This document shows, piece by piece, positions 7,678 to 39,637 of a DNA stretch of 39,637 bases. This DNA comes from an uncultured Arenicella sp. (lineage in GTDB: Bacteria > Pseudomonadota > Gammaproteobacteria > Arenicellales > Arenicellaceae), in NCBI GenBank assembly GCA_937989675.1, contig CALKRK010000288.1, forward strand, positions 1 to 39,637, in the 5' to 3' direction. The notes beneath the pieces are model-generated. The model was given only the letters and a program-made list of their open reading frames with translations, ran no database searches and was not told the DNA's origin. The position numbers were made by a program, and so were the translations under genes. Position 1 is the stretch's first letter. Every line of letters begins with the position of its first letter.

Positions 7678-8760
7678 ATGAGTCGTATTTATAACTTCAG
7701 CGCGGGCCCAGCTGCGCTACCTCTTGCTGTGCTTGAAGAAGTTCAAGCCGAAATGCTTGAGTGGAATGGTTCTGGTGCATCAGTGATGGAAGTATCGCAT
7801 CGCGGTAAGCCATTTATGGAAACAGCCGCGCAAGCCGAACAAGACTTGCGTGACTTGATGGGAATTCCAGACAACTACAAAGTGTTGTTCCTTCAAGGTG
7901 GCGCAACTTCTCAGTTTTCTGCAATCCCCCTAAATCTCAAATTTCTCGGTGCTAAAGCTGATTACGCGCACACTGGGCATTGGAGCAAAAAGGCGATAGC
8001 GGATGCCAAGCGCTTTGTTGACGTTAATGTGGTGTGTGACACTTCAGAGGAGGGCTATAAGCACGTTCCTGATGCAAGCGATTGGAGTTTGAGTGATGAC
8101 GCGGCCTATGTTCACGTGACACCCAACGAAACAATTGCCGGGGTTGAGTTCAATTGGTTGCCTGATACCGATAAACCGATTTGTGCTGACGTGTCATCTA
8201 ATATTTTGTCACGCCCGATCGATGTTTCTAAATACGGCGTTATCTATGCTGGAGCGCAGAAAAACATCGGCCCAGCTGGCTTAACGATCGTGATTGTAAG
8301 AGACGACCTTGTTGGCCAGTTTCCAAGTGACGCGCCGCGTTTGATGGATTATCAAGTAATGGCTGACAGCGATAGCATGAACAATACACCGCCGACCTTT
8401 GCCTGGTATCTGGCTGGCAAAGTTTTTCAATGGCTGAAAAACAACGGTGGTGTTGAAGCGATGGCAACAAAGAACCAAGCTAAAGCTGAGAAGCTTTATA
8501 ACTATGTCGATAATTCTGATGGGTTTTATACAAACCCGGTTGCCGTTGAAAATCGTTCTTGGATGAATGTGCCGTTTATTCTTGCAAATAGCGATTTAGA
8601 CGCCAGTTTCCTAGAACAATCGCACGCCGCTGGTTTGCACGCGCTGAAAGGTCACCGCTCAGTGGGCGGCATGCGGGCCAGTATTTACAATGCGATGGGG
8701 CTTGATGGAATTGACGCACTAGTCGATTTCATGGATTCTTTTAAAGCCGCTAACCAATAA
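7678..8760 (+). CDS. serC: phosphoserine aminotransferase
   Basis: SerC converts 3-phosphohydroxypyruvate and glutamate to phosphoserine in serine synthesis. It also acts in pyridoxal phosphate synthesis in many bacteria. The 360 residues match the family length. The start [12 protein letters not shown] is diagnostic, [10 protein letters not shown] (72-80) contacts the cofactor phosphate, and Lys195 in [11 protein letters not shown] is the residue that binds [14 protein letters not shown] near the C-terminus binds the substrate. TTGGAG lies just upstream of the ATG. The serA-type dehydrogenase that makes its substrate starts 53 bp downstream. Confidence 0.97.
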
Positions 8761-33346: not shown

Positions 33347-33904
33347 CTAACTCCAGTGAGTTAGGTAGTCAACAGGGTCTAAATTTGGCGCTGGTTTTAA
33401 AATCTTGGGTGTACCTAGGTATATAAATCCCACGATCTGATCGTTCTCATCTAAGCCGAGGCCTGCTCGCATAGTTGATTGAAACATTAGGCTCCCAGAT
33501 CTCCAGATAGCACCGATGCCTAATGCGTGAGCTGCGGTCATCATCATTTGTGCGCTAGCGCCAGCAGAGAGCACCTGTTCGACCTCAGGTACCTTTTCAT
33601 GTTTGCTTATCTTTGCTGCGACCACCAATATAGAAGGGGCTCGCATTGGTTTGCATTTAAGCTTTTCAGCGGCCTCAGCGCTTATTCTGGCGCCTTCCAT
33701 CTCTTCTTTGACCTTCACCATTAAATCCCCGAATTTAGCTCTTGCATCGCCTTCTATTAGAAGAAATCGCCAAGGCCGAAGGTTGGCGTGATCACAAGCT
33801 CTTAAACCTGCACGAACAATTGCGTCTAATTGTTCTGACGTTGGCCCGGGAGTTGTTAGTAAGTTGACGGATGTGCGAGAGTGAAGTGCGTGTAGTGCGT
33901 CCAT
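33347..33904 (-). CDS. YdjA-type nitroreductase
   Basis: This is a small FMN-dependent oxidoreductase of 185 residues, like E. coli YdjA (183). The start MDALHALHSRTSVNLL, the RAGLRACDHANLRPWRF region (FMN and dimer contacts), SAGASAQMMMTAAHALGIGAIWRSG and the C-terminal GFIYLGTP are hallmarks of that subgroup. It converges with the ferredoxin gene with 32 bp between the stops. The natural substrate of the YdjA group is not settled. Confidence 0.92.
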   Translation of the reverse strand: MDALHALHSRTSVNLLTTPGPTSEQLDAIVRAGLRACDHANLRPWRFLLIEGDARAKFGDLMVKVKEEMEGARISAEAAEKLKCKPMRAPSILVVAAKISKHEKVPEVEQVLSAGASAQMMMTAAHALGIGAIWRSGSLMFQSTMRAGLGLDENDQIVGFIYLGTPKILKPAPNLDPVDYLTHWS

Positions 33905-34167
33905 GTTGGCGTGTTGGTTTTTTAGTTTTGAAGCCTATTTTAACATCACTTTGAATGCTAACTAGGCGCGCGTAGATAACTATTTGCTTGCAAACAATGA
34001 TCAAAAACTCGTGTTTACACTTTAAGTGTCTGCGATTTTGGATAACTGACAAGCGGAAAAAACTAGATAAACGTCGCGAAAGTGTCCATTTTTATAAAAG
34101 AAATACGACTTTTTTTCAAAATTATACAAACTATAAAAGAAAAGAATAACGTCCCTCACATTAGTTA

Positions 34168-34176
34168 TGGTATCTT
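34168..34176 (+). promoter_or_regulatory. extended -10 promoter of the candidate small RNA
   Basis: TG, one base, then TATCTT, preceded by about 70 bp of A/T-rich DNA that could act as an UP element. Transcription would start near 34182, exactly where the first hairpin begins. No -35 hexamer is convincing. Confidence 0.4.
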
Positions 34177-34181
34177 TTCTT

Positions 34182-34368
34182 TGCATATGTTCAACCCGCA
34201 TATGCACCCAGAAGCCCGCCGGTTTTACTCCAACCCTCAACCGGCGGACCAAGGAGCTTTTTGTTAGGAACTAGGAAGTCTCTAACTAAAAGCAAAATAG
34301 AAGGCAAACCTTTGGGGGGACAGCCTTCTGGAGAGGCTCTTGAGTCGTTGCTCAAGAGCCTCTTTTTT
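34182..34368 (+). ncRNA. candidate small RNA with GGA motifs (CsrA/RsmA-sequestering type?)
   Basis: About 187 nt fold into five successive hairpins. H0 is TGCATATG/CATATGCA (34182-34206). H1 is CCGCCGGTT/AACCGGCGG (34216-34247). H2 (34256-34293) is GCTTTT/AAAAGC, then GTTAG/CTAAC, then ACT/AGT closed by an AGGA loop. H3 is AGAAGGC/GCCTTCT (34299-34329). The last is a terminator. GGA occurs six times (34246, 34253, 34267, 34274, 34318 and 34330), several in loops or linkers. Serial hairpins with exposed GGA are the mark of CsrB/RsmY/RsmZ RNAs that titrate CsrA. No open frame of note crosses it. The class assignment is inference; a different sRNA is possible. Confidence 0.6.
34333..34368 (+). 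terminator. intrinsic terminator of the candidate small RNA
   Basis: GAGGCTCTTGAG and CTCAAGAGCCTC form a perfect 12-bp stem with a TCGTTG loop, followed by six Ts. No protein gene lies within 400 bp upstream on this strand, so it must end an RNA gene. Confidence 0.9.
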
Positions 34369-34951
34369 GCCTGAAAGTTGGCGGCGGTGAGTGTGTGTTA
34401 CCTCCGCTGCTTTCAAGTCTATTTTTACCTTACCTGAACCCATCTAAACAAGTGTCTAATTTTCATAATTGTTGGTTAGAATTTGAGAAAATATCGAAAT
34501 TTTGGTGTTTGTTTTTCAACACTATTTAAATGTTCTTTATTTTCAATGGCTTATGTGTATTCTGTTTTGGCTTTAGTTGATCGCTTTTTTTTAATTTTTT
34601 TGTCTTTTCTTTTCCTTTCTTATATAGATTTGATCTATAAAACAGATTTATCTTACAAACAGCTATTAAATTGGATCGCCGACTAGCTTGCTTTACAGCT
34701 TCATCTTGTTGCGCAAAAACAACATTGCAGGATAGTGAGATATCTAATTGTTTTACGATCAAGAGATTTTTACATTTTTGAGCAAACAACGATGATTAAT
34801 ATGCAATAGGCTGTTTGCGGCGAAATTGCTCGAGCGTATTGTCTGGATTGATTGTCACTGGTTTTTATTTCCGGCCCTTTCTTTCCTCTTAACGCGATTT
34901 TTCTAGGCCTCTAGGAAGCACTCTTGCGAGGAGTTTGGTAGTCTTAATGAT

Positions 34952-35041
34952 ATGCCAGCAAATATCCTCCATGCTTGTGTCAATGGCATAGTCGAACCAT
35001 TTGAACCAACCGATACTCATTTTTGTGAGTTAGATCAATAG
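34952..35041 (+). CDS. possible 29-residue ORF before the nitrilase-like gene
   Basis: ATG at 34952 to TAG at 35041 encodes MPANILHACVNGIVEPFEP and ten more residues, ending 18 bp before the next gene. It has no well-placed ribosome site. It may be a leader ORF or chance. Confidence 0.2.
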   Translation: MPANILHACVNGIVEPFEPTDTHFCELDQ

Positions 35042-35059
35042 CATCACCAGAGGTCCGCT

Positions 35060-36199
35060 ATGCGCAACTTCCCCCTTCCGATTAACTGCTTACTTTTATT
35101 CATAATCTGCACCGGATGTGCTTCAAATACACCTCAATTATCTGACAAACAGAGCGCTCAGACTCAATTGCCTAAGTTGGTAGACGCTCGCGGTGTCTAC
35201 GCCACGATTCCTCTTGAAAAGGATGAGGTGGTGGTTAAGGTAATACAGAGCGAGGTTCGCAATCTGCAGAGCTTTAGTGATGTGGAAGAGGGTTTAGCGA
35301 AAAATCTACAGACTATGGAGGAATTCGCAAAGCGTGCTTGTGGCACTGGTAAGAAACCTGATTTCTTACTGTATAACGAATTTCCTCTAACCGGCTATTC
35401 TTCTGGTTCTCGCGATGAAAAACTCAAGTTCACTATTACTGTACCTGGCCCTGAAACAGACGCACTGGGAGAAATCGCGAAATCTTGTGATACCTATATT
35501 ATCTTTGGCAGCTACGCTACCGACCCCGGCTGGCCTGGGCATATTTTAAGTCTGAATACAGTTATCGGGCGTGATGGAGCCATCAAAGAAAAGTTTTGGA
35601 AAACGCGTAATGTAAAAAGGTTAGGCAAGGGTGAAATTCCGACCACCACAATCGAGAACGTATACGATCGGTATCTTAATGCTTACGGGCCGGAAGCGCT
35701 CTATCCGGTGGTGCGAACAGAATATGGCAATATCGCAGTGAGCACAGTACAACTGGATGCTTTTGTTTACGCTGCGTTTGCGATGCGCGGCGTTGAAATT
35801 ATGTTTCGCACGTCGACTTTGTTTGCGGTGGAAGACGTCAAAGCAATTGCGCGCTTTAATGATTTTTACTCAGCCATGTCGAACATTGTCTTCCCCGAAG
35901 AGAGTGGGGCAGCTCAGTATGGAGGCGACTCACTTATTGTCAGCCCTGATGGCGACGTTCTTGGAGAATTACCGGGAAATATAGAAGGGATTATCGAGGG
36001 TACAATACCGATCAGAGCGTTTCGTGAGAACCGTAGGATACCGCGTTTTCCAATGGAAGTAGTTCAACCCGTGTTTCAGCAATATCGCCAGGAGGTGCCA
36101 CTTAACCATTTGGACTTGCCTGTTGAATCTTTACCGCAAACACGAGAGACCATGAAGGAGTTGTTAGACAACGAGAGTCGATGGCTCAATAATGACTAG
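35060..36199 (+). CDS. lipoprotein with nitrilase/amidase fold lacking the catalytic cysteine
   Basis: This is a 379-residue exported protein with a lipoprotein signal (ICTGC, Cys20). Residues of about 57-330 resemble the carbon-nitrogen hydrolase (nitrilase) fold, closest in pattern to aliphatic amidases. Glu107 in YNEFPLTGY and Lys181 in KFWKTRN fit the catalytic Glu and Lys, and AMRGVEIMFRTS matches the family's (A/L)xxGAExxxxxS region. Where the Cys should follow the strand, the sequence reads GNIAVSTVQLD, with no cysteine. Depending on gaps, Ser228 or Val230 takes its place. It is therefore probably a non-catalytic binding protein or an altered enzyme. It converges with the TPR lipoprotein gene. 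Confidence 0.75.
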   Translation: MRNFPLPINCLLLFIICTGCASNTPQLSDKQSAQTQLPKLVDARGVYATIPLEKDEVVVKVIQSEVRNLQSFSDVEEGLAKNLQTMEEFAKRACGTGKKPDFLLYNEFPLTGYSSGSRDEKLKFTITVPGPETDALGEIAKSCDTYIIFGSYATDPGWPGHILSLNTVIGRDGAIKEKFWKTRNVKRLGKGEIPTTTIENVYDRYLNAYGPEALYPVVRTEYGNIAVSTVQLDAFVYAAFAMRGVEIMFRTSTLFAVEDVKAIARFNDFYSAMSNIVFPEESGAAQYGGDSLIVSPDGDVLGELPGNIEGIIEGTIPIRAFRENRRIPRFPMEVVQPVFQQYRQEVPLNHLDLPVESLPQTRETMKELLDNESRWLNND

Positions 36200-36281
36200 C
36201 GTTATAGATATAGAGTGCTGATAGAAAATTATCAACCGTTTATCGTCTTACGTGCGCGACGCCTAGTTTCAATGCCAATAG

Positions 36282-37454
36282 TTAGTCACCAAACCAGCGA
36301 ACACTGGGCACCTGTGGAGTGCCTGGGTTGGCTAAAGCAGACTCTACAATCGCAAGATCGCGCTCAACCCCATAATGGATTCGCGCCTGTGAAGCTTTCG
36401 CGGCGAGCAGCAATTCTTGAGCCTGGTTGAATTTTCCTAGTCGGTAGTAAGCCCAGCCTTTGACTGCGAGCGTGTGCAGTTTTTGCGGCGCATTTTGTAG
36501 CAGAGCGATGGCTTCAGATGCGTTACCACTTTCAACTAGAGCATACGCCAGCGACCAACTTTGATATTGACCAGGTTTTAGCTCATAGGCGCGTCGTGCG
36601 TAATCAATTGCTGAGTCGTAGTCACCGAGCTCAAAAAAGAAGTTTGCCAAATTAGTTTGAAAAATTGACTCATCAAATGATCGGCCCTTATTGGATAAGC
36701 GACGATATTTCTGGATAATTTCGCTTACTTTTTTGTCGCTCCCCAACGCCAATTCGGCCATTGCTTGGCGGTAAAAATTTGCCCTTTCAGTGATTTTGAT
36801 ACGTTGGCCAGGCAAACTGGCTTGAAGCGATTCTTTTAACTTACCAGCTCGATAGTATGATTTAGCATTTAAATAGTGAATATAGGTGGCAGCCCAAGCT
36901 TGATCTCGAGAGTCGAGCAAAAGTGCGTTTTCGAAGGCGCTGCTTGCTTCATCATAGTACTGAGTACGATAGAGTATGCTTCCAAGTTGATACCAAACCC
37001 ACCTATTTTTTGGATCTAGCTTCGTTAAAGCGTTCCATGCTTGAATTTCCTTCTCCGCATTGTCGGCAACTCGTGCATTCAGCGCTGCTAGCCAGCCCAA
37101 TTTGGTACCCGATAAACTTCGGCTATATTGATCGGCTTTAGCTAACGCGGCGCGAGATTGCTCAAATTTATTCTGCGTTGTGTAAGCGTAACCTAGGTCG
37201 AGCCATAATGAGGAGTCAGTGGGTTGCGACTGAGTCAAGTCCTCAAGTAGCACAACTGCGTCGGCATAGTCACTGCGACGCTGTGGATTGAACAATAGGC
37301 GATGACCTGCCGATGGGGCTAACTTATCTACGATAGGTGTAGAATCATTAACTGGTATATTTTCAGAAAGATCACTCCCAGCAAACTTTGAGCAGGCACT
37401 AAGGCAAACAAGAAGTAGCGCGACGCAGCAGATATTGATGAACGTTCGTAACAT
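36282..37454 (-). CDS. TPR-repeat lipoprotein
   Basis: This is a 390-residue protein with a clear lipoprotein signal (LLVCLSAC, Cys21). The rest is mostly TPR-like helix pairs: WLDLGYAYTTQNKFEQSRAAL, VWYQLGSILYRTQYYDEASSAF, and FFFELGDYDSAIDYARRAYELKPG are the best. It probably sits in the outer membrane and scaffolds other proteins; the partner is unknown. It lies 55 bp after the DUF1838 gene on the same strand, so the two may be one transcript. Confidence 0.8.
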   Translation of the reverse strand: MLRTFINICCVALLLVCLSACSKFAGSDLSENIPVNDSTPIVDKLAPSAGHRLLFNPQRRSDYADAVVLLEDLTQSQPTDSSLWLDLGYAYTTQNKFEQSRAALAKADQYSRSLSGTKLGWLAALNARVADNAEKEIQAWNALTKLDPKNRWVWYQLGSILYRTQYYDEASSAFENALLLDSRDQAWAATYIHYLNAKSYYRAGKLKESLQASLPGQRIKITERANFYRQAMAELALGSDKKVSEIIQKYRRLSNKGRSFDESIFQTNLANFFFELGDYDSAIDYARRAYELKPGQYQSWSLAYALVESGNASEAIALLQNAPQKLHTLAVKGWAYYRLGKFNQAQELLLAAKASQARIHYGVERDLAIVESALANPGTPQVPSVRWFGD

Positions 37455-37509
37455 ATTCTATCTCCAAATTTTTAGAGGGCTATACCGCTCACAACAAACA
37501 TTCGATGGA

Positions 37510-38436
37510 TCAATCCCTTGGCGAGGCCGCTCCACGTTGTTTTTTGTAGCTTTCATAGGTACTCGCTCGCCCTTCCCATGGGCGATTGGGGGCAAAATAG
37601 TTAGCTTGATTTGTTTCGATATAAGCCTTCAGCGTTGGTGAGACCTCAGATATTGAGCCCAGTTTGGAGGCGACACCTCGCCACATCACAAAACCAGGGG
37701 CGCCATCCATCAGCAACCAGGGCTCCCAAGACAAAAAGGCTGTCCAGAATAAAGTGTAATCGGCGCGCCTGACTGTGCGGTCGTTGAGCTCTTTTTCAGA
37801 GACCAAGTAACTTGTTTCAGACCCAAAAAGAAATTCGTCTCCTGAGTTTTCTCTCGGCCAATCAGAGGATGGAAACGGCGTGGGGAATGTGCCTCCACGT
37901 TGCTCGGTATACCAAAGTTTTCTGCCGGTGGTTTGCCATCGCGACTGCAATCCACTCCTCAAAGTTTCTTCAGTATGAATTACTTGATTTCCACCATAAC
38001 GAAAATGGAATGGCGAAACCTCTTCATTAGTAATTGGATTTTTAACCGAATCTAAGGGTTCACCCGATTCCAGGTCGCCAAAGTAGCCGATATCGAAGCT
38101 GCGCTGAGAATACGAACCATCTTTCTGCGGGCTCCACATCGAGCGGGCAAGTCCATGGAAACCACAAATTGGGGCTGGTTCTCGATTTGGTGCAATCGCC
38201 CACAGCGTGCCATCCAGAGCGACATACACGTCTTCTTTTTCCAGAGTGCCAATCAATTTAATGTGAGTCTGAAGATCATCTTTAGGTTCAGAGAAACCAG
38301 TTTCGTTCTCGGCGCTGGCATCACTTTTGGGGCCGCTATGGCTGGCGGTAGAATATAGGGCCATACCAGCGCCAAATCTAAGCATACTGCGGCGGTTGAG
38401 GCTAAATCCTTTTTGTGCGTTGATTAAGTTAAGCAT
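37510..38436 (-). CDS. DUF1838 family protein with Tat-like signal
   Basis: This is a 308-residue protein. The N-terminus has NRRSMLRFGAGMALYS (Arg15, Arg16), a twin-arginine export signal of the SRRxFLK type. The body carries the conserved pieces of DUF1838: YVALDGTLWAI, ARSMW, GYFGDLESGEPLD, NPITNEEVSPFHFRYGG and a Trp-rich LFWTAFLSWEPWLLM region. The biochemical role of this family is not known to me. Export by Tat suggests the protein folds, perhaps with a cofactor, before crossing the membrane. Confidence 0.8.
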   Translation of the reverse strand: MLNLINAQKGFSLNRRSMLRFGAGMALYSTASHSGPKSDASAENETGFSEPKDDLQTHIKLIGTLEKEDVYVALDGTLWAIAPNREPAPICGFHGLARSMWSPQKDGSYSQRSFDIGYFGDLESGEPLDSVKNPITNEEVSPFHFRYGGNQVIHTEETLRSGLQSRWQTTGRKLWYTEQRGGTFPTPFPSSDWPRENSGDEFLFGSETSYLVSEKELNDRTVRRADYTLFWTAFLSWEPWLLMDGAPGFVMWRGVASKLGSISEVSPTLKAYIETNQANYFAPNRPWEGRASTYESYKKQRGAASPRD

Positions 38437-38863
38437 GTAAGCCTCTCGAAGGTAAATTTCAGCAAAGGCGCTAAGGCTAGCCCATAATGTTCCATTGTAG
38501 ACCTTCGAAATTATCTGCTCCAGTAAATTTAATAACCAGTGTCTCTTATTTCAAATCGAATTTGCACCTGAGTATCAACCTGTTCCGCTAACACTAGTCG
38601 CTAGATCAGTTGGTCAGGACTTCGACAATCCTTCAGCATCTGTGGAAAACGACAGTCTCTAGAGAACCTCCTTGGTTTAATGTCCATATGAGGCATGCCT
38701 TCCCTAGGTATGGGCCACGGTATTCCTTTGAAAAGATTCTTTTCAGTAAAAAGACGAACCTAAAAGATAAGCTTCGCGGCTAGTACAAATAGAAGAGGGT
38801 ATTAAAGGCGTTTAGCAAACTTACCAATCCTTAGTAAGCCTTTGATTAAAAAGGTAGTTGAAA
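38437..38863. other. 427-bp intergenic region between the DUF1838 gene and tRNA-Asn
   Basis: No gene is supported. TCGAAGGT (38446-38453) and ACCTTCGA (38501-38508) form an 8-bp inverted repeat in the leader or promoter region of the minus-strand DUF1838 gene, possibly paired operator half-sites. A 57-codon open stretch on the plus strand lacks an ATG. Confidence 0.4.
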
Positions 38864-38939
38864 TGGCTCCCCGAGCTGGACTCGAACCAGCGACCCAATG
38901 ATTAACAGTCATTTGCTCTACCAACTGAGCTATCGGGGA
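38864..38939 (-). tRNA. tRNA-Asn (anticodon GTT)
   Basis: The 76-nt cloverleaf on the minus strand has acceptor TCCCCGA/TCGGGGA, D-arm GCTC/GAGC with AGTTGGTA, anticodon loop CTGTTAA, T-arm CTGGTTCGAGTCCAG, and an encoded CCA. Confidence 0.95.
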
Positions 38940-39042
38940 ACAGTATTTCAACGAAGGCGAATCGTACTGATTCAACACTCTTCGGTCAAGTAATTTCCAG
39001 CTTTTTTTTACTCAAATGTAGGGCGGAATTACAAAGCCTGCA

Positions 39043-39618
39043 TCAAGCTTTGCTCCGGCAAATTTCGTGCTGCTTTTCGCCTAAGTTTCGTTGCGTTCGA
39101 GCACGCCCTGTGTGGAGTAGTTTCACATGCCAGCCTGATTCAGAATTGGCTGTGCATATATAAAAGCCAGCGCTTCTGGCACTACCATCGGGGAAAAACC
39201 GTAGGCGGCCGCGTTGATTGAACACGGTAGCGACGTTTGCGTTGCTCGATACATTTAGGACGGAATCTTGTGTGTCGAGTTTGTTATTTCTATTTTTGTC
39301 TTCGTAGACAATCCAACCATCCTTCCAATTCGTGTTACTAGAATAATCGCCGTTACATTTTTCTTTTTGCATACCTGCTGCAGCACAGACGATAACAACA
39401 GATTGTGTTGTCAGGGCGTAGTTCCGGGCACTGTGCAAAGTTGCGTGAAGTAGGCTGACTTGAGTGCGTATTCGGGTGTTTTCGATTAAGGTGGTGAAGT
39501 TAGGTATGGCGATGGCTAATATGGTTGCGATTATAGAAATGACCAGTAAGGCTTCGATAAGTGTAAAACCAGTACAGTGGGGCGCTCTTCTGCTGTGCGC
39601 ATTGTTATATTCAATCAT
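39043..39618 (-). CDS. FimT/GspH-type minor pilin (pseudopilin)
   Basis: This is a 191-residue prepilin with a GGAGG site upstream of the ATG. After a 17-residue leader the prepilin-peptidase site is G17/FTLIEALLVISI, with Glu22 at position +5 and the usual hydrophobic helix. The rest fits the GspH/FimT domain of type IV pilus minor pilins: RTQVSLLHATLHSARNYAL, WKDGWIVYEDKNRNN and LRFFPDGSA. FimT and FimU proteins prime pilus assembly or bind DNA for uptake. Other minor-pilin genes would be expected nearby but are outside the window. Confidence 0.88.
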   Translation of the reverse strand: MIEYNNAHSRRAPHCTGFTLIEALLVISIIATILAIAIPNFTTLIENTRIRTQVSLLHATLHSARNYALTTQSVVIVCAAAGMQKEKCNGDYSSNTNWKDGWIVYEDKNRNNKLDTQDSVLNVSSNANVATVFNQRGRLRFFPDGSARSAGFYICTANSESGWHVKLLHTGRARTQRNLGEKQHEICRSKA

Positions 39619-39637
39619 GTGTTTCCTCCGTGAAACG

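Follow-up and report, generated by a model that had tools for sequence, protein, structure and literature searches.

A probable, previously undescribed small RNA family with conserved C-rich loops in one bacterial genus

The RNA element and its surroundings

The window, i.e., the whole stretch of 39,637 nucleotides that we analysed, is contig C288 of an assembly of 3.58 Mb that is 80% complete (G000 below, where G numbers stand for genomes and L numbers for the loci that we read). Between the genes of a nitroreductase-like protein and of a carbon-nitrogen hydrolase lies an element that runs from a putative promoter to a terminator. The features of this region are as follows:

33347..33904, minus strand: NAD(P)H nitroreductase-like gene, a conserved neighbour of the RNA (best NCBIfam model 168.1 bits, below its cut-off of 183)
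34168..34176, plus strand: extended -10, TG-G-TATCTT (TGGTATCTT), read from the sequence; no -35 found
34182..34368, plus strand: small RNA of ~187 nt, with the start inferred from the -10; based on the fold (z -7.0) and on homologues
34182..34206, plus strand: hairpin 1, loop UCAACCC (ACCC at 34194-34197); from the fold and a covarying stem (10 hairpins from 7 RNAs)
34216..34247, plus strand: hairpin 2, loop UUACUCCAACCCUC (ACCC at 34233-34236); from the fold, with a CCAACCC-type loop in several relatives
34256..34293, plus strand: hairpin 3, AGGA tetraloop at 34273-34276, a possible CsrA site; from the fold, with GGA in the loop in 12 of 15 copies
34298..34330, plus strand: hairpin 4, G6 tract at 34314-34319; from the fold and stem covariation, with a G5 to G7 tract in 13 of 15 copies
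34331..34368, plus strand: intrinsic terminator, GGCUCUUGAG mostly kept among copies; from the fold, alignment and covariation
34446..34480, plus strand: putative remnant of a KAS III upstream box, with the gene itself absent (GTGTCTAATTTTCATAATT, which resembles TGTCTATTTTTCGTAATT)
35060-36199, plus strand: carbon-nitrogen hydrolase gene

The anatomy that the initial annotation had given to this element is right. The five hairpins placed in 34182-34368 fold clearly more stably than shuffled sequences, with a minimum free energy (MFE) of -79.0 kcal/mol against a shuffled mean of -51.0 (z -7.0; none of 200 shuffles was equally low). In the MFE structure the G6 tract of hairpin 4 is partly paired with the CC upstream of it. 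The extended -10 from which the RNA would be transcribed is present in the sequence, but no -35 is recognisable and a sigma-70 scan gives no promoter for the RNA. Among the 15 copies described below, TGNTATCTT is exact in 10 and TGNTA occurs in all 15, the -10 of each copy having been picked by eye. The perfect 12-bp terminator stem with a T-run was also seen by inspection (GAGGCUCUUGAG/CUCAAGAGCCUC, 12 perfect pairs and then T6). An automatic terminator scan of 33950-35060 reported none, probably because its rule lengthens the stem by G-U pairs into the T-run. The surroundings are as gene-poor as had been described: ORFs of at least 80 aa in the gap 33905-35059 comprise only a mechanical minus-strand ORF (34526-34789) and the start of another (33792-34052). 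No small ORF is common to the RNA copies.

Family members and their conserved loops

A DNA search of 61 genomes gave matches in five, the window's own counted, all within the genus. More copies were recognised by reading the neighbourhoods of the nitroreductase gene and of the relatives' KAS III gene. An alignment of eight copies with MAFFT and RNAalifold misaligned hairpin 4, and we therefore built a covariance model from two sequences, those of the window and of G016 (R1), and then grew it into a model from 12 copies (R2). R1 found further copies among 41 loci (184,825 bases). At E up to 0.1 its matches fell in 11 of the 61 genomes, every one a member of the genus, including G008, where inspection showed no G tract. 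The R1 matches L069 (G008) and L074 (G002:C61), which have no GGGGGA, were discarded. With weak matches counted (E up to 0.1), R2 reached 12 of the 18 genomes of the genus; its matches below 1e-5 fall in 14 places of 10 genomes, and 12 of these places had trained the model. Across 109 genomes of the order, R2 matches outside the genus only in G018 and G080, and both matches were set aside as plain terminators by appearance. Thirteen weak R2 matches were examined in context (8 stretches plus L094, L095, L097, L107, and L108); those among the thirteen other than L110 and L112 look like plain terminators, mostly behind coding-looking sequence.

Model, synteny, and inspection together place the family in 12 of the 18 genomes of the genus, the window's own counted: G000, G001, G002, G003, G005, G007, G009 (partial), G010, G012, G013, G014, and G016. 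Two or more copies are found in G002, G003, G007, and G012, and one confident copy in the window's own, 80% complete genome. We cut a set of 15 copies from the -10 to the terminator; these are related to one another and do not represent 15 independent events. Outside the counts made on this set are L040 (G014, KAS side, no terminator seen), the contig-end loci L037 and L039, and the later-found L110.

Rfam has no match in the window at the gathering threshold, and at E up to 10 the segment 33950-34500 matches just three unrelated families, far below their cut-offs. A plasmid search gave no match, and we did not find a description of such an RNA in the open-access literature that was searched. 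The initial annotation's view of an undescribed small RNA is well supported by the homologues, the covariation, the synteny, and the lack of an Rfam match; we looked for a better fit to another RNA family, and no Rfam family fits. We thus found an RNA family that was not previously described, in one genus that is probably gammaproteobacterial.

Compensating base changes were found among the relatives, both in hairpin 4 with the terminator and in hairpin-1-type stems. The former were analysed in 12 sequences and 20 pairs, in an alignment that had been fitted to the structure: 97.8% of the cells are paired, and 10 pairs changed on both sides (at most two when slid). Four of five covariation measures beat all 500 shuffles, and the fifth (further pair types) was reached by 10 of them. 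The hairpin-1-type motif comprises 10 ungapped hairpins from 7 RNAs, with 93.3% of the cells paired (68.3% in the best slide) and double changes in 22 of 60 cells (11 in the next best slide). Paired cells and covariation score lie above all 500 shuffles, and two measures do not: double-change pairs (127 of 500) and further pair types (291 of 500). The loop carries ACCC in 10 out of 10 of these hairpins despite the changes in the stem, in rows that were selected for an ACCC loop.

In the 15 copies, several words are found in hairpin loops far more often than in folded dinucleotide shuffles: ACCC in 14 copies (1.25 expected), UGGG in 10 (0.54), GGGG in 7 (0.39), AGGA in 6 (0.73), and GGA in any hairpin loop in 13 (3.7). 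The ACCC loops take the forms UUGACCC, UCAACCC, and CCAACCC, and ACCC is also in the terminator loop of six copies (G010k, G007k, G002n, G014n, G012n, and G001k). The G5 to G7 tract of 13 copies—12 with the tract in the hairpin directly before the terminator, and G001k with an extra hairpin between—owes its conservation in part, like CCAACCC, to the selection of the sample, because R1 and R2 include the G tract and CCAACCC served as a search word. GGA itself was not among the search words, and just one of them (GACCCTCATATG) included the hairpin-1 ACCC. Both copies without a G tract are from G012. The tract is usually part-paired in the MFE structure, often with the CC immediately upstream. 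The window RNA adds a multi-copy, undescribed sRNA family with sharply conserved loops and freely changing stems. As the loops are conserved on stems that change, their function is directly testable by mutation.

Some loci share only part of these traits. L110 (G012:C154:33234-33314, minus strand) is a further element that looks like an RNA and combines a CCCAACCC hairpin with a G7 tract and with ACCCC in the terminator loop; neither KAS III nor nitroreductase was recognised within the 2 kb that were read. L112 (G012:C158:27049-27123, plus strand) looks non-coding and has a C-rich loop (CCCCACCCC) in the hairpin before the terminator and no G tract. It can be compared with the G012 copies L021 and L055, which have GCCC and ACACCC at the place of the family's G tract. 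Some 280 nt upstream of the nitroreductase gene of G004, L017 shows a G10 tract after CCAAACC; no RNA copy was recognised in that genome. L042 (G000:C13), ~730 nt upstream of KAS III, shows CCAACCC and then a G7 tract with no obvious terminator, and is possibly a decayed relative.

Antisense pairing and contacts with CsrA

The best explanation, which we advance at just short of an even chance, is a stand-alone, trans-acting sRNA of ~187 nt, complete from promoter to terminator, that would act by antisense pairing through its C-rich loops. Stable stems would display the ACCC-bearing loops, and the partners of these, as reported for sX13, would be G-rich segments of mRNAs close to the start of translation. 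This Xanthomonas RNA has stable stems with several apical C-rich loops for which pairing with G-rich mRNA motifs was proposed, and parts of its description state that the loops are required to repress mRNAs with G-rich motifs near translation starts (PMC3771888). Since stems with C-rich loops are the anatomy of sX13, we infer the same mode for the window RNA. The two differ in that sX13 has CCCC or UCCCCCU, whereas here ACCC is flanked by UUG, UCA, or CCA and accompanied by a G5-7 tract and a GGA hairpin. The likeness, the closest known, is anatomical and we claim no sequence homology. Among the KAS III leaders of eight relatives, a look for G-rich targets near the start codon gave nothing convincing. 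Exact complements of 8-9 nt to the RNA are found in 7 of the 8 leader regions, which is about the chance number by our own estimate, made with no control. Two of them touch conserved loops: GGGTCAAA (G016) lies opposite UUUGACCC, and TGTCCCCC (G005) opposite the G tract.

The conserved GGA hairpin of such a pairing RNA may in addition recruit CsrA and so modulate its stability or pairing. CsrA is encoded in the window's genome (PF02599, 91.6 bits), downstream of an ORF that, by eye, we take to be aspartokinase. In 12 of the 15 copies the loop of the hairpin that precedes the G hairpin contains NGGA, with the A in the closing pair in three of these (loop lists read by hand; for the two G012 copies that have no G tract, the corresponding hairpin was counted). 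NGGA is missing from this hairpin in G003k, G007n, and G003n, and the last two have no loop GGA at all. Seven of the 12 NGGA loops have the ANGGA spacing, e.g., CACGGAAG (G016) and CAUGGACG (G005), near the ANGGAX hexaloop rule given as a preference of RsmE in part of PMC4005645; the AGGA of the window does not have that spacing. In 10 of the 15 copies a second GGA stands at the end of the G tract, where it could serve a CsrA dimer as the other site; it is partly or wholly paired in the MFE structure in all 10. Judged from sequence, the RNA may make one or two contacts with CsrA, given that the protein is encoded, that the GGA loop is conserved, and that a GGA recurs at the G tract.

These contacts might be central to the function, in a dual sRNA of the McaS kind whose base pairing is tuned by one or two CsrA sites. 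The occurrence of ACCC loops together with a conserved GGA hairpin would suit such an RNA, in which base pairing and limited CsrA binding would combine as in McaS of E. coli, a CsrA-binding RNA that also controls mRNAs, csgD among them (PMC10729762). However, McaS has four GGA, two of them proven CsrA sites, whereas here usually one is accessible. We claim no sequence relation between the two, and we consider this second reading unlikely.

The initial annotation had assigned the element to the CsrB/RsmZ architecture, i.e., to sponges that titrate CsrA by their GGA sites. Its stand-alone, undescribed sRNA is well supported, but the multi-site CsrA sponge is not. The window RNA does resemble CsrB, CsrC, and RsmX/Y/Z as a terminator-ended, multi-hairpin RNA with a GGA loop in a genome that encodes CsrA, and the excess of loop GGA, the NGGA hairpin with its partial fit to the ANGGAX rule, and the GGA at the G tract all favour contacts with this protein. 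Yet the number of GGA equals that of the shuffles (3.73 vs 3.70 per copy in the 15 copies). The six that had been counted in the window are there, but six or more occur in 38 of 500 shuffles (mean 3.6), which is not clearly above chance, and the MFE structure leaves just one of the six, that of the AGGA loop, fully unpaired. Per copy, 1.13 GGA lie in hairpin loops (0.26 in shuffles) and 0.93 are fully unpaired (0.32 in shuffles), which leaves about one loop GGA per copy and none in two of them, with the GGA of the G tract at least partly paired. In Pseudomonas, according to part of PMC2375449, several GGA are needed to sequester RsmA proteins and the single-GGA RgsA fails to do so; the Csr sRNAs with stated GGA numbers have 9 to 25 in the corresponding part of PMC11882849. 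RgsA is like the window RNA a small RNA with a single GGA motif, and differs from it in that the part of PMC2375449 that describes it mentions neither ACCC nor G-tract loops.

The profile searches agree with these counts: Csr/Rsm families have no match in the window at the gathering threshold and none in 14 related loci at E up to 0.5, and RF00166 (RsmZ) gives nothing above its cut-off in 21 genomes. Sub-threshold RF00166 matches were dismissed: 5 of these 21 genomes have them, but so do 6 of 14 controls, such as Bacillus and Haloferax. The GacA/UvrY box is TGTAAG..CTTACA, and none was seen by eye upstream of the RNA copies; uvrC, sought as a pointer to UvrY/GacA, was not found in the 80% complete assembly. 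The best-kept features, the ACCC loops and the G tract, are foreign to the CsrB/RsmZ description. A sponge of this kind seems doubtful. By a count of GGA alone the RNA would have been filed among the CsrA sponges, although its best-conserved loops point elsewhere.

The G tract, sister copies, and the KAS III neighbourhood

In the preferred reading of a pairing sRNA, the G5-7 tract near the terminator also has a place. It is complementary to the C-rich loops of the same RNA and might keep them locked, either inside a single molecule or by contact with a sister copy; a target or a protein would then open the RNA. The loop of hairpin 2 pairs with the G tract at a mean of -11.1 kcal/mol in 10 RNAs, compared with -9.4 for shuffled loops (16 of 500 letter shuffles were as low). 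In G005 and G016, UGUCUCCC stands opposite GGGGGGACA with 8 pairs. A search for coevolution between C loops and G tract in 12 RNAs found cognate pairs no better than permuted ones (p ~0.4 for hairpins 1 and 2), and the internal lock is therefore an idea and not a finding. If the C and G loops do lock each other, the RNA would be a compact natural switch. The same complementarity, together with the genomes that have at least two copies (G002, G003, G007, and G012), would suit an RNA sponge that sequesters other small RNAs, such as sister copies, by its G tract and C loops. But the window's genome has one confident copy at 80% completeness and any pairing from copy to copy is hypothetical, and we find this sponge quite improbable.

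Copies of the family sit either beside the nitroreductase gene or upstream of a pair of genes that is absent from the window. The first encodes a KAS III (PF08541/PF08545) and the second a membrane protein with HisKA_7TM at 26.3-26.6 bits, just under the cut-off of 28.6, and with a C-terminal HTH recognised by eye. A number of genomes have several such pairs, including two on other contigs of the window's genome (G000:C13 and G000:C38). The KAS III and 7TM-like/HTH pairs (L031-L058) resemble modules of a signal synthase and a membrane regulator. The RNA and KAS III were both read in eight relatives; there they share a strand, with the RNA upstream and its end ~195-807 nt ahead of the gene. A TGTCTATTTTTCGTAATT-like box precedes KAS III in 8 of the 12 loci that were checked. 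L031, L038, and L041 (genomes G005, G007, and G010) showed none, and L032 has just another match. The region 33901-39637 of the window contains no coding relic of KAS III or 7TM, and the pair was presumably lost from it. Between the RNA and a tRNA-Asn, the window has genes for the carbon-nitrogen hydrolase, a TPR protein, and a DUF1838 protein (35060-38436); in G016 their place is taken by a KAS III/7TM pair, followed by a tRNA.

A more elaborate proposal would combine these elements in a self-locking RNA, with the ACCC loops held by its own G tract and CsrA, at the GGA hairpin between them, opening or closing the lock; the family would have diversified beside the KAS III/7TM-HTH pairs, as possible synthase-receptor modules, to serve as their output RNA. 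We regard it as highly improbable. The RNA is most likely a unit separate from the KAS III operon, given its end 195-807 nt before the gene, the separate box, the RNA of the window without the pair, and the copies on other contigs. A cis-acting leader or attenuator of the downstream operon, which would fit the place of the RNA ahead of a co-oriented KAS III in eight relatives, is the least probable reading of all, because the terminator comes that far ahead of the gene, KAS III has a separate box in 8 of 12 loci, the nitroreductase-side copies of G002, G003, G007, G012, and G014 do not share a contig with the KAS III copy that most resembles the query, and the RNA occurs in the window with no such operon behind it.

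The genus also has a second terminator-ended, RNA-like element, read as L090/L129 (G000:C253, ~8235-8398, minus strand), beside a gene that by eye is presumably ffh, and as L089/L133 (G005:C4:29760-29902, minus strand). A search for its pattern with at most one mismatch matched 17 of the 18 genomes of the genus, and among the 17 loci read the element is in only these two. It consists of an AUCACCC..GGGUGA hairpin and a GCAUC-AGGA-YGAUG hairpin, and its RsmZ score is ~20 bits, below the cut-off. The AGGA hairpin of this second element is more CsrA-like in look than that of the window.
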